Assembly: GCF_001187905.1 (NCBI RefSeq)
Contig: NZ_LGIS01000030.1
Location: 310,001 to 374,000, forward strand
DNA from: Pantoea sp. RIT-PI-b
Lineage (GTDB): Bacteria > Pseudomonadota > Gammaproteobacteria > Enterobacterales > Enterobacteriaceae
Direction: 5' to 3'
Length of the DNA stretch: 64,000 bases
Part shown: positions 32,319-36,329 of the stretch, one piece after another
Position numbering within the stretch: the stretch's first letter is position 1
Layout of the letters: each line of letters starts with the position of its first letter
Notes under the pieces: generated by a model
Told to the model about the DNA's origin: nothing
What the model saw: the letters and a program-made list of their open reading frames with translations, nothing else
The model's database searches: none
Position numbers and translations under genes: made by a program

Positions 32319-32978
32319 ATGTCTGATACCTTCACACGCCAGCCGCTCCCTTTACCCAACGGTCACAATAAAGTACTGCTGCACTCGTGCTGTGCACCCT
32401 GCTCGGGCGAAGTGATGGAAGCGATGCTGGCTTCGGGCATTGATTACACCATTTTTTTCTACAACCCAAACATTCATCCGCTGAAAGAGTACGAACTGCG
32501 TAAAGAGGAGAACATCCGCTTTGCCGAGCAGTTTGGCGTCCCGTTTGTGGATGCCGATTACGACAAAGACAATTGGTTTGCGCGCGCACGCGGCATGGAG
32601 TGGGAACCGGAACGCGGCGTGCGCTGCACCATGTGTTTCGATATGCGTTTCGAGCGCACCGCGCTGTATGCACATGAAAACGGTTTTCCGGTGATCACCA
32701 GTTCACTTGGCATTTCGCGCTGGAAGAACATGCAGCAGATTAACGATTGCGGCGTGCGTGCAGCTGCACACTATCCCGATATGCTTTATTGGCAATTTAA
32801 TTGGCGTAAAGGCGGCGGATCGTCACGCATGATTGAGATCAGCAAGCGCGAACGTTTCTATCAGCAGGAGTATTGCGGCTGCATCTATTCACTGCGCGAC
32901 AGCAATCGCCATCGCGTTGCCAGCGGTCGCGAGCGCATTGAAATCGGCGTGCAGTATTACCAACCGGATGAAGAGTAA
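32319..32978 (+). CDS. queH: Epoxyqueuosine reductase QueH
   Basis: Reduces epoxyqueuosine to queuosine in tRNA wobble position 34, the last step of Q synthesis. It has 219 residues (former DUF208) with the family cysteines: HSCCAPC (Cys24, Cys25, Cys28), RCTMCFDMR (about 102-110) and YCGC (about 185-188), which bind an iron-sulphur cluster and a second metal. This is the non-homologous alternative to cobalamin-dependent QueG used by E. coli; whether this genome also has queG cannot be seen here. Confidence 0.92.
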
Positions 32979-32982
32979 AGAA

Positions 32983-33004
32983 AAGGGCAGGATTTCCTGC
33001 CCTT
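32983..33004. terminator. Shared terminator between queH and the mgtB operon
   Basis: AAGGGCAGG-attt-CCTGCCCTT. Leftward it is followed by TTTCTTTACTCT, suiting the mgtB-microprotein transcript; rightward it lies right after the queH stop. Confidence 0.72.
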
Positions 33005-33011
33005 CATGTGA

Positions 33012-33098
33012 TTAACGCAATACCAGCGTCAACACCACGATGACCACCATCATCAGCAGCAGATGGAAGACCACTTTATTAAGATTTCTGTTGCGCAT
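33012..33098 (-). CDS. 28-residue single-pass membrane microprotein downstream of mgtB
   Basis: ATG at 33098-33096 is preceded by GGAGGTGA, an extended match to the anti-Shine-Dalgarno, and the frame ends with TAA at 33012. The product starts MRNRNLNKVVF and continues as an unbroken hydrophobic helix (about residues 9-27, rich in L, M and V) ending in Arg. It begins 15 bp after the mgtB stop on the same strand and before the shared terminator, so it is co-transcribed. Salmonella encodes the 30-residue MgtR and also MgtU in connection with MgtB; this peptide has the same position, size and layout, but I see no clear residue-level identity. Function as a regulator of MgtB stability is inference. 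Confidence 0.75.
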   Translation of the reverse strand: MRNRNLNKVVFHLLLMMVVIVVLTLVLR

Positions 33099-33113
33099 GT
33101 CACCTCCATCGTC

Positions 33114-35837
33114 TTAGAACCACTGACCAAAACGCTTGATGTAGAGCATTTTCATGCCCTGCGCGACTACGCAATAGCCGAGCAGCGTTGCCACCAGCCA
33201 TGGGAAGTAGGACCACGGCAGCGGCACTAATCCAACCATGGCACCCAGCGATGAGAACGGCAGCAGAATGCCGGCGATCATCACGCAGGCCGTGGTCAGC
33301 AGCACCGGCAGCGCAGCGCGACTCTGGATAAACGGAATCTTTTGCGTCCGCAACATATGTACCACCAGCGTTTGCGACAGCAGGCCTTCAATAAACCAGC
33401 CAGACTGGAACAGCGACTGCATCTCTGGCGTATTCGCCGCAAATACGTACCACATCAGCGCAAAGGTGGTGATATCGAAAATGGACGACGTTGGGCCAAT
33501 CCATAGCATGAAGCGTTTGATATTACGCGCGTCCCATTTACGCGGTTTACGCAGGAATTCACGGTCCATTTTGTCCCACGGCAGCGCCAGCTGAGACAGA
33601 TCGTACATCAGGTTCTGAATCAGCAGATGAATCGCCAACATCGGCAGGAACGGAATAAAGGCGCTGGCCACCAATACCGAGAACACATTGCCAAAATTAG
33701 AACTGGCGGTCATGTTCAGGTACTTAATGATGTTGCCGAAGGTTTCGCGCCCCGTCATCACACCCTCTTCCAGCACCATCAAATCTTTTTCCAGCAGGAT
33801 GATATCGGAAGATTCTTTCGCGATATCCGCCGCGCTATCGACGGAAATCCCCACATCAGCATCACGCAGTGCCGGAGCATCATTAATACCATCGCCCAGG
33901 AAACCAACGGTGTGACCAAGTTGCTGCAGCGTACTCACCAGACGTGATTTTTGCAGCGGCGTGAGTTTAGCGAACACCGAACTTTGTGCTGCAGCCGCCG
34001 CCAATTGCTCATCGCTCATTAATGCAATTTGGTCGCCGGTAACGATCGCGCCGCTATCGATGCCAACCTGCTGGCAAATGCGCGCGGTAACCACCGGATT
34101 ATCGCCGGTTAATACCTTGACGCTGACACCATTGTCGCGCAATGCGCTAATGGCTTTCGCGGCGCTCTCTTTTGGCGGATCGAGGAAGGTCAACAGTCCT
34201 TCCACCGTCAATCCCTGCTCATCCGCCACGCTCAACGGCTGCTGCAAACCCGGCTCCGCCAGCACGCGACTGGCCACCAGCAACACGCGGAAACCCTGCT
34301 CATTATATTGATGTGCTAGCGCCAATAGTTCTGCACGGCGCGTTTCGTTCAGCGGCTGCACCAGTTTGCCTTCGCGCTCGGCGGTAGCGATGCTCAGCAT
34401 CTCTTCCACTGCGCCTTTGCAGATCAGCATCTGTTGATTCAGGCGACGATCGCGCACCACCACCGAGACACGGCGCCGGATAAAATCAAACGGCAGTTCA
34501 TCCACTTTGATGTAGCTGTCGCCAACCGCCTCGCTAACCCGGTTTTTGCCGTACTGCAAAATGGCGCGATCCATCAGGTTCAGCGTACCGCTTTGATAAT
34601 GGCTGTTGAGCCAGCTCAACATCAGCACGCGTGAGTTTTCCACGCCAGCACAATCCAGATGATGCTCCAGAATGATGTTGTCCTGCGTAAGCGTACCGGT
34701 TTTATCGGTGCAAAGGATGTCCATTGCCCCGAGGTTTTGAATCGCGTTCAGGCGCTTAACGATCACTTTGCGCCGCGACATGGCAATGGCGCCTTTCGCC
34801 AGATTTGAACTGACAATCATCGGCAGCATTTCCGGCGTTAATCCGACCGCCACCGCCAGCGCAAACAGCGAAGCGTCGAGCCAGTCGCCTTTGGTGAAGC
34901 CATTGATCAGCAGCACCACCGGCACCATCACCAGCATGAAGCGAATCAGCAGCCAGCTCACGCTGTTAACGCCGCGGTCAAAGGCGGTTTGTGAGCGGTT
35001 ACCAACAATCGATTTCGCCAGGCTACCAAAATAGGTTTCGCTGCCGGTCGCCACCACTACTGCTTTAGCGCTGCCGCTGGAGACGTTGGTACCCATCAGG
35101 CAGACGCTGCCCAGTTCCAGCAGCGACGTGCCCTGCTCGCTGGCACCGCTGCTTTTGCTGGTGACATGGCCGGTAACGTCATATTTTTCAACCGGTAACG
35201 ATTCGCCAGTTAAAATTGCCTGGCTGATAAACAGATCGCGCGAATCCAGCAGGCGCACATCGGCGGGCACCAAATCCCCCGCGGAGAGATAGATGATGTC
35301 GCCAGGCACCAGCGTAGCGATGTCCACTTCCTGTTTGCTGGGCGCATGCTGCGCTGATTCACGACGTAATACGGTCGCGGTGGTGCGCACCATCGACTTC
35401 AGCGCCTGTGCCGCTTTGTTGGTGCGGAACTCCTGCCAGAAGCGCAGCAAACCGCTGAGCGTTACCATCGTCACAATGATGATGACACCGGTCAGATCGG
35501 TCTCCTCACCGTTGCGCATCGGCAGCCAGAAATCAGTGAAAAAACTCACCGCAGCCAGTGCCATCAGGACATAGATAAACGGATTGTTGAACGCGTGCAG
35601 CAGCTGCACCAGCGCCGGCGGCGCTTTATCGTGTTCAACCTGATTACGGCCATACACCGCTAAGCGCGCCTCGGCTTCACGCTCATTCAGGCCCAACGCA
35701 TCACTACGCAGGCGCACCAGAGTTTCATCGGCAGTGAATCCGGCTTCATCTTCAATCAGGTAGCGCGGCGTTTTGTGACGCTGCGGACGTGTGGTATTCC
35801 AGGCTTTTTTGTCCTGGTTGAGTTTCATGTCAGTCAT
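33114..35837 (-). CDS. mgtB: P-type Mg2+-importing ATPase MgtB
   Basis: P3B-type magnesium importer of the inner membrane. It has 907 residues from MTDMKLNQDKK (35837; AGGAG seven bases upstream), essentially the length of Salmonella MgtB (908), and it resembles MgtB more than MgtA: FIYVLMALAAVSFFTDFWLP and the C terminus YIKRFGQWF. It has the phosphorylation site DKTGTLT, TGES, the KGA nucleotide motif, GDGINDAP and about ten membrane segments. An in-frame ATG at 35891 is rejected as lacking a ribosome site. No mgtC precedes it. It is read from a long leader and followed by a 28-residue membrane peptide. Confidence 0.95.
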   Translation of the reverse strand: MTDMKLNQDKKAWNTTRPQRHKTPRYLIEDEAGFTADETLVRLRSDALGLNEREAEARLAVYGRNQVEHDKAPPALVQLLHAFNNPFIYVLMALAAVSFFTDFWLPMRNGEETDLTGVIIIVTMVTLSGLLRFWQEFRTNKAAQALKSMVRTTATVLRRESAQHAPSKQEVDIATLVPGDIIYLSAGDLVPADVRLLDSRDLFISQAILTGESLPVEKYDVTGHVTSKSSGASEQGTSLLELGSVCLMGTNVSSGSAKAVVVATGSETYFGSLAKSIVGNRSQTAFDRGVNSVSWLLIRFMLVMVPVVLLINGFTKGDWLDASLFALAVAVGLTPEMLPMIVSSNLAKGAIAMSRRKVIVKRLNAIQNLGAMDILCTDKTGTLTQDNIILEHHLDCAGVENSRVLMLSWLNSHYQSGTLNLMDRAILQYGKNRVSEAVGDSYIKVDELPFDFIRRRVSVVVRDRRLNQQMLICKGAVEEMLSIATAEREGKLVQPLNETRRAELLALAHQYNEQGFRVLLVASRVLAEPGLQQPLSVADEQGLTVEGLLTFLDPPKESAAKAISALRDNGVSVKVLTGDNPVVTARICQQVGIDSGAIVTGDQIALMSDEQLAAAAAQSSVFAKLTPLQKSRLVSTLQQLGHTVGFLGDGINDAPALRDADVGISVDSAADIAKESSDIILLEKDLMVLEEGVMTGRETFGNIIKYLNMTASSNFGNVFSVLVASAFIPFLPMLAIHLLIQNLMYDLSQLALPWDKMDREFLRKPRKWDARNIKRFMLWIGPTSSIFDITTFALMWYVFAANTPEMQSLFQSGWFIEGLLSQTLVVHMLRTQKIPFIQSRAALPVLLTTACVMIAGILLPFSSLGAMVGLVPLPWSYFPWLVATLLGYCVVAQGMKMLYIKRFGQWF

Positions 35838-36323
35838 GATGACACTCCTCTGTTTTACGGCAATAGATATCCCTGCATGCCATGCACACAAAATGGATGT
35901 AATTAAATTAACGGCAATGCGTTATTAAATTAAAAATAACCTGTCGGGAATTTCCATATCACCTCCCGGAAATTAAAGACGAAAAGAGTCGCTCGTTAAA
36001 TAACGAGTAATAGATAATGACGAGGGAAAACACCACGCAGTCGAACAGCGAAGAGCTGTCTAACGCGCAGCGTAAATCAGCACGCTGAGGTTCAGCGCGC
36101 GCATCGAGGCGGAGGGAAAAGTGTGTTAAAAATCATGTGCATGATAATGTTCCCACGAGCTTCGGCCCGTTACAGTGTCGTTGTGAGGGAACAATCATCA
36201 GAAGAGAGGAGGATTGCTGCCCGCCGTGTTGGCAAGCAGCGACAAAAAAGTTCGCGCGTCAGCTTGCCTTGTGTTGCCATCTAAAAGGGTGACTGTCCAA
36301 CTGAACTCTCCTGCTTTGAAATT
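35838..36323 (-). promoter_or_regulatory. Long structured mRNA leader of mgtB (probable Mg2+/translation-responsive attenuator)
   Basis: About 486 nt separate the predicted start of transcription from mgtB. In transcript order it contains GGCAACACAAGGCAAGC (36268-36262 region), an arm that can pair with GCTTGCC at 36237-36231. That same segment alternatively forms the GCTGC...GCAGC hairpin (36240-36216), so the two folds exclude each other. A stem GTTCCC/GGGAAC (about 36186-36152), the proline-containing leader frame (36142-36092) and a CTCGTTA/TAACGAG hairpin (36007-35992) followed by a T-rich stretch come next. A second short frame MEIPDRLFLI behind GGGAGGTGAT lies at about 35957-35925. The layout recalls the mgtA and mgtCBR leaders of Salmonella, but no sequence identity is claimed. 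Confidence 0.65.
36092..36142 (-). CDS. Candidate proline-containing leader peptide of mgtB
   Basis: A 16-residue frame MHMIFNTLFPPPRCAR in the mgtB leader. Three consecutive proline codons followed by Arg are a classic ribosome-slowing sequence. Leader peptides with proline codons (MgtL, MgtP) control mgtA and mgtC in Salmonella. Its ribosome site (TGGGAA, nine bases upstream) is modest. Confidence 0.5.
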   Translation of the reverse strand: MHMIFNTLFPPPRCAR

Positions 36324-36329
36324 GCGGCT

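Follow-up and report, generated by a model that had tools for sequence, protein, structure and literature searches.

A putative MgtU-type small membrane protein encoded behind mgtB in Pantoea and confined, next to mgtB, to one MgtB lineage

Here, we describe a 28-codon frame directly behind mgtB in Pantoea sp. RIT-PI-b that is a conserved coding sequence under purifying selection. The frame lies in a window of 64,000 nucleotides, by which we mean the whole stretch of DNA that was analysed and to which all coordinates below refer. From its sequence we assign the product as a diverged Pantoea MgtU and not as MgtR, and we consider it probable, by analogy with Salmonella, that the gene is mgtU, that it closes a reduced mgt operon, and that its product would be made at low Mg2+, bind MgtB and shield it from FtsH. 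MgtU as a kind of protein is already known from Salmonella, where it was reportedly described by Yeom, Shao and Groisman in 2020. As far as the literature was searched, what is new is the genus-wide occurrence of MgtU in Pantoea, partly below the cut-off of the family model, its tie to one MgtB lineage independently of mgtC and mgtR, and the existence of mgtR-mgtU pairs that are not linked to mgtB. A literature search for a small membrane protein with mgtB in Pantoea found no paper. The features of the locus, all on the minus strand, are as follows.

36206..36324, minus strand: mgtC-type leader RNA RF02887 (91.8 bits, gathering score 48), which precedes mgtB, with no mgtC
35959..36036, minus strand: GTG-started frame of 25 codons, its TGA within GGAGGTGAT, on the Shine-Dalgarno of the mgtQ-like frame
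35925..35957, minus strand: mgtQ-like leader ORF MEIPDRLFLI, before mgtB, with an acidic-x-Pro-acidic pattern and GGGAGGTGAT in front
33114..35837, minus strand: mgtB, Mg2+-transporting P-type ATPase, 907 aa from the ATG at 35837
33100..33107, minus strand: Shine-Dalgarno of mgtU, GGAGGTGA, its GGAGG core 4 nt from the ATG
33012..33098, minus strand: putative mgtU, ATG start, 28 codons, stop within the coordinates; product MRNRNLNKVVFHLLLMMVVIVVLTLVLR
32982..33005, minus strand: intrinsic-terminator-like hairpin directly behind mgtU (1 found against 0.3 expected in shuffles)

The end of mgtB at 33114 and the ATG of mgtU at 33098 are separated by a gap of 15 nt, GACGATGGAGGTGAC, which contains GGAGGTGA. 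The preliminary description of this DNA had reported a 28-codon ATG frame 15 bp behind mgtB with an extended Shine-Dalgarno; all of this is confirmed and the coordinates 33012..33098 are correct, the strand, which had been left unstated, being the minus strand. On the plus strand, the same frame at 33012..33098 yielded no comparable protein. The hairpin 3' of mgtU has a 10-pair stem and a T-rich tail and is terminator-like; a search of 32900-33200 for a sigma-70-like promoter was negative. From the short gap of 15 nt, the missing promoter-like site and this hairpin, we infer that mgtB and mgtU are carried on one messenger. The mgtB protein scores 1648 bits against NF011702 (PRK15122) and 1450 bits against TIGR01524, above the respective curated cut-offs of 975 and 610.75 bits. 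Since it is the only match above the TIGR01524 cut-off in the genome, there is no mgtA by TIGR01524. The mgtU product is predicted to be a single-helix membrane protein, hydrophobic and with a basic N terminus.

To assess the chance of meeting such a frame, the 154 nt that follow mgtB were shuffled 20,000 times with dinucleotides preserved, and each shuffle was searched for a frame of 20-45 aa with a start 10-40 nt into the sequence, a Shine-Dalgarno and a hydrophobic stretch. A comparable frame arose in 8 of the 20,000 shuffles at a Kyte-Doolittle value of at least 2.0 and in 0 of the 20,000 at a value of at least 2.8; the real sequence passes both thresholds. Across 23 sequences of the window's clade, the pooled pN/pS was 0.373 in the mgtU frame, as against 1.17 and 2.02 in frames +1 and +2 of the same DNA. 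Ten pairs that share no branches on the MgtB tree gave a pN/pS of 0.477, with 41 synonymous versus 55 non-synonymous changes where about 74% of neutral sites are non-synonymous (binomial P 3.6e-4). Eight pairs picked by eye gave 0.243 (P 8e-10), some of which share branches on the MgtB tree, and our claim of selection relies on the ten branch-disjoint pairs and not on these eight. GGAGG lies no more than 14 nt from the mgtU start in 21 of the 23 clade sequences; in the two without it, L140 and L142, the stop of mgtB overlaps the ATG of mgtU. In relatives the frame encodes 26 aa in six cases and 30 aa in one, the start having been chosen by us. The conservation among relatives for which the preliminary description had asked was found, in that the start, the Shine-Dalgarno and the hydrophobic pattern are kept. 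It had also named two outcomes that would speak against the frame, loss of that conservation and equal non-synonymous and synonymous rates; with pN/pS below 1, neither occurred.

The sole NCBIfam match of the product was to NF040924 (small_MgtU), at 18.9 bits (E 8.6e-4, model positions 5-28) when 27 residues were searched with the initial Met omitted, and at 18.6 bits in the genome search, where the match spans 84 bases and model positions 1-28 of 28. The curated cut-off of this model is 33 bits, and the window protein lies below the score that membership demands. A weak NF040924 score by itself means little. In the order-wide search, 184 of 394 genomes had a match at E <= 1 and only 3 were over the cut-off, six of the 14 control genomes also had matches, and among the matches listed for the order ten score above that of the window. 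The Pfam search of the window peptide and the search of a plasmid collection gave no match, and the PDB sequence search found no relative of it.

As any hydrophobic helix can score by its composition, profile scores were compared with 5000 shuffles that kept composition, the N-terminal and helix parts being shuffled separately. For the MgtU profile we took 16 sequences of MgtU, none from the clade of the window; an MgtR profile served for comparison. This clade-excluded MgtU profile scored the window protein at 29.3 bits, a value that none of the 5000 shuffles reached (best 26.5). Seven other sequences were put to the same test; four beat all 5000 shuffles, and L140, L012 and L033 were reached by 1, 4 and 2 of them. 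Our first MgtU profile, made from nine seeds of which four came from a second Pantoea group, had given the window just 9.2 bits (E 0.046). The 28-aa members, window included, end in a C-terminal LT-x3-R, with L23 and R28 in all 62 and T24 in 61 of them; this signature was derived in the present analysis and not by the authors of NF040924. We judge the protein to be homologous to MgtU beyond its hydrophobic composition.

The likeness to Salmonella MgtU extends to the length of 28 aa, the hydrophobic helix with its basic N terminus, the LT-x3-R, the position behind mgtB on the same strand and the alignment to all 28 model positions. In contrast, only 8 of the 28 residues are identical to those of the MgtU of L187, which we take to be Salmonella, and the score is below the family cut-off. 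The gene also differs in that it directly follows mgtB, with no mgtR between mgtB and mgtU and no mgtC at the locus within 1500 nt upstream of mgtB, to which the mgtC search was limited. Both the assignment to the MgtR/MgtU class of single-helix peptides in the preliminary description and its remark that the residues differ from those of Salmonella are borne out by these results, and the class can be narrowed to MgtU by the clade-excluded profile.

The window operon comprises an mgtC-type leader RNA, an mgtQ-like ORF, mgtB, mgtU and a terminator-like hairpin, without mgtC and mgtR. Here, mgtC and mgtR may have been lost, with the leader, mgtQ, mgtB and mgtU kept; the alternative is that mgtC and mgtR were gained in other lineages instead. 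By analogy with Salmonella MgtU, we propose that mgtU would be translated at low Mg2+ as part of the mgtB messenger and that the peptide would insert in the membrane as a single helix. There, it would bind MgtB and keep FtsH from degrading it. Since MgtR is absent at the locus, MgtU here would be a plain stabilising partner and not a counterweight to MgtR. PhoQ and FtsH are both encoded in the genome. A pump with its putative protector alone, separated from MgtC and MgtR, would let protection be measured without the opposing peptide.

The available text of several papers states that Salmonella MgtU binds MgtB and stabilises it against FtsH, and that MgtR promotes, and does not prevent, degradation (PMC10710835, PMC10580885, PMC13209247, PMC10117436). 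However, the available text of another puts it differently and has MgtR and MgtU act as guides that bring MgtC and MgtB to proteolysis by FtsH (PMC8092293). E. coli MgtS is similarly said, in the text available, to be a small inner-membrane protein that protects a Mg2+ P-type ATPase from FtsH; that ATPase is MgtA, unlike the MgtB proposed as the target of the window peptide, and the two are compared by description only. A survey of enterobacterial microproteins, a preprint, names MgtU once in its available text, for Salmonella, and reports there that E. coli translates a microprotein encoded behind mgtA (PMC11188072). Its supplementary tables may list some of these Pantoea frames.

The distribution of MgtU was followed in the window's genus and family; the named GTDB genomes were the best 80 of 573 relatives. 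The genus was represented by 61 genomes, 53 with an mgtB match and eight without a match at E <= 1e-300. For the family, 392 genomes were drawn evenly from a larger group and 212 were over the cut-off of the mgtB model, mgtA included; family loci above 1320 bits were taken as mgtB, and 20 at about 1230-1260 bits were fetched as mgtA controls. The locus set held 262 loci with 231 distinct sequences, 211 of mgtB and 20 of mgtA. The tree was built with FastTree, carries local support only and has 210 rows, 207 of MgtB and 3 of MgtA as outgroup; four of the 211 distinct mgtB rows were left off (identical protein or less than 60% identity) and three of the 20 mgtA rows were kept. Frames were called as MgtU or MgtR at E < 0.06 and 24-46 aa, the value of 0.06 having been set post hoc to let the window and its closest relations (0.046-0.049) through. 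L126, L127, L131 and L135 miss this E threshold, carry the same frame in the same place in the DNA and were counted as having mgtU.

In the material examined, MgtU adjoining mgtB is shown to be confined to one MgtB lineage, being found with 69 of the 78 members of a single MgtB clade, which has support 100, and with none of the 129 MgtB outside it. No MgtU- or MgtR-like frame was detected behind mgtA in any of the 20 mgtA loci at the thresholds used. The MgtB tree shows 4 changes in the presence of MgtU, compared with 13 in that of mgtC and 9 in that of mgtR; these counts depend on the thresholds and on the 1500-nt mgtC search. MgtU is in this way extended from Salmonella-type loci to a genus-wide Pantoea gene, with an MgtU-like frame behind mgtB, by position, in 49 of the 53 mgtB genomes of the genus (45 by the profile threshold, window counted, and 4 by eye), as against 22 of 61 genus genomes over the cut-off of the curated model, three of these via unlinked copies. 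In L169, which is counted among the 49, the mgtB frame is interrupted and an extra MgtR-like frame lies in between. As 22 genomes of the genus do score over the NF040924 cut-off, what the cut-off excludes is the window's sub-clade. Furthermore, the model missed G441 and G450 although the gene is visible behind mgtB, so its silence alone is no proof of absence.

Nine members of the clade have no mgtU behind mgtB: L056, a Sutterella row on a long branch whose placement is unsure, four of genus g207, L146, and L029, L156 and L160, which are three Pantoea rows of one sub-clade. Given these nine exceptions, and that the four g207 genomes had no MgtU match anywhere at E <= 1, MgtU is not indispensable. 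In L146 (G415, Pantoea), the Shine-Dalgarno and ATG are kept and the remainder of mgtU is replaced by what we presume, from its look, to be an insertion element; no MgtU remnant was found in the 1494 nt downstream. That MgtU keeps to a single MgtB clade with few changes, irrespective of mgtR and mgtC, and that its C-terminal LT-x3-R is nearly invariant, would also fit a role as a small subunit, by which transport or assembly in this MgtB lineage is tuned directly and protection from FtsH is a side effect of the complex being formed. However, the Salmonella effect as reported concerns proteolysis, and g207 has MgtB of the same clade without a detected MgtU; we therefore think a subunit of this kind unlikely and retain stabilisation of MgtB as the preferred role.

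A peptide of this size, topology and position might instead be an adaptor of the MgtR type, which would deliver MgtB, or MgtC-family proteins, to degradation by FtsH. Like Salmonella MgtR, the window protein is a small single-helix peptide encoded behind mgtB, and in Klebsiella-type loci it is MgtR that directly follows mgtB. Yet the MgtR profile does not recognise it, giving 1.8 bits, a score equalled or bettered by 4421 of the 5000 shuffles, versus the 29.3 bits and 0 of 5000 obtained with the MgtU profile. Given this profile result, we rejected an MgtR-type identity, and as the peptide also ends in the LT-x3-R signature of MgtU and mgtC was not found at the locus, we regard an adaptor as very improbable, though the genome encodes two MgtC-family proteins away from the locus, which match the mgtC of L187 at 45% identity over 224 residues and at 40% over 146. 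Another MgtB clade does have an MgtR-like peptide, and no MgtU, behind mgtB (L051, L245, L246, L251, L254, L267 and L268), and five of these seven loci have no mgtC within 1500 nt.

The genomes of L029, L156 and L160 (G443, G097, G395) carry an mgtR-like and mgtU pair elsewhere, which scores 40.9-44 bits and is over the cut-off. By comparison of coordinates, these are the only ones among the 22 over-cut-off genomes of the 61 in which the MgtU match lies away from mgtB. The unlinked pair sits between genes for an AraC-type regulator and an alpha/beta-hydrolase (named from their translations), and no mgtB was present in the 3 kb inspected. The pairs are at L091/L171 (G097), L301 and L305 (G395) and L302 (G443); G395 has two identical-looking copies on two contigs, and that genome is given 3% contamination.

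The presence of an unlinked pair in three Pantoea genomes without MgtU behind mgtB favours a protein that acts in trans, and these pairs provide a test of peptides working in this way. They would also suit a peptide that acts mainly, or additionally, on a membrane protein other than MgtB, as E. coli MgtS is stated to act on PitA as well as MgtA in the available text of PMC10710835. However, where it adjoins mgtB, MgtU is tied to one MgtB clade, and the eight genus genomes without an mgtB match had no MgtU match at E <= 0.3, so that a different target seems to us most unlikely and MgtB the probable one. As to its history, we hold evenly balanced the view that MgtU is the inherited partner of one MgtB lineage and not an accessory of the virulence-type mgtCBR operon, having arisen about once with that lineage and persisted in places where mgtC and mgtR had disappeared or had never been acquired, with an unlinked pair in the three-genome Pantoea clade that has no MgtU behind mgtB. 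If this is true, the unlinked pair would be a natural case of a stabiliser and an antagonist placed in trans under control separate from the pump.

Given that pN/pS is below 1 in the mgtU frame and above 1 in the other two, that none of the 20,000 shuffles passed the stricter hydrophobicity threshold, and that an RNA element acting in cis on mgtB leaves the unlinked pairs of three genomes unexplained, we reject as extremely improbable the reading that this very short frame between mgtB and a terminator-like hairpin is no gene and owes its conservation to chance or to an RNA element such as a terminator or coupling signal.

Five MgtB residues separate the MgtU-bearing rows from the others (V457, T600, A670, S677 and R840); of these, only R840 lies in a hydrophobic stretch, and the set is confounded with ancestry and is no proof of a contact site. 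Upstream of mgtB, the leader RNA RF02887 was found in 17 of the 20 related loci searched and not in L028, L039 and L055. Salmonella mgtQ, according to the available text of PMC8092293, carries acidic residues at positions 2 and 5, with Pro at position 4, and promotes translation of mgtB. By the pattern that we used, 35 of the 69 MgtU-bearing rows have a frame resembling mgtQ before mgtB; 7 rows lacking MgtU, two of them mgtA, also have one, of a different look. Frames of the MEIPDRLFLI type are met repeatedly in the clade of the window, and those of the MD.P type in the mgtC-bearing relatives. In the window, the way in which the GTG-started frame ends on the Shine-Dalgarno of the mgtQ-like ORF suggests that the two are coupled.
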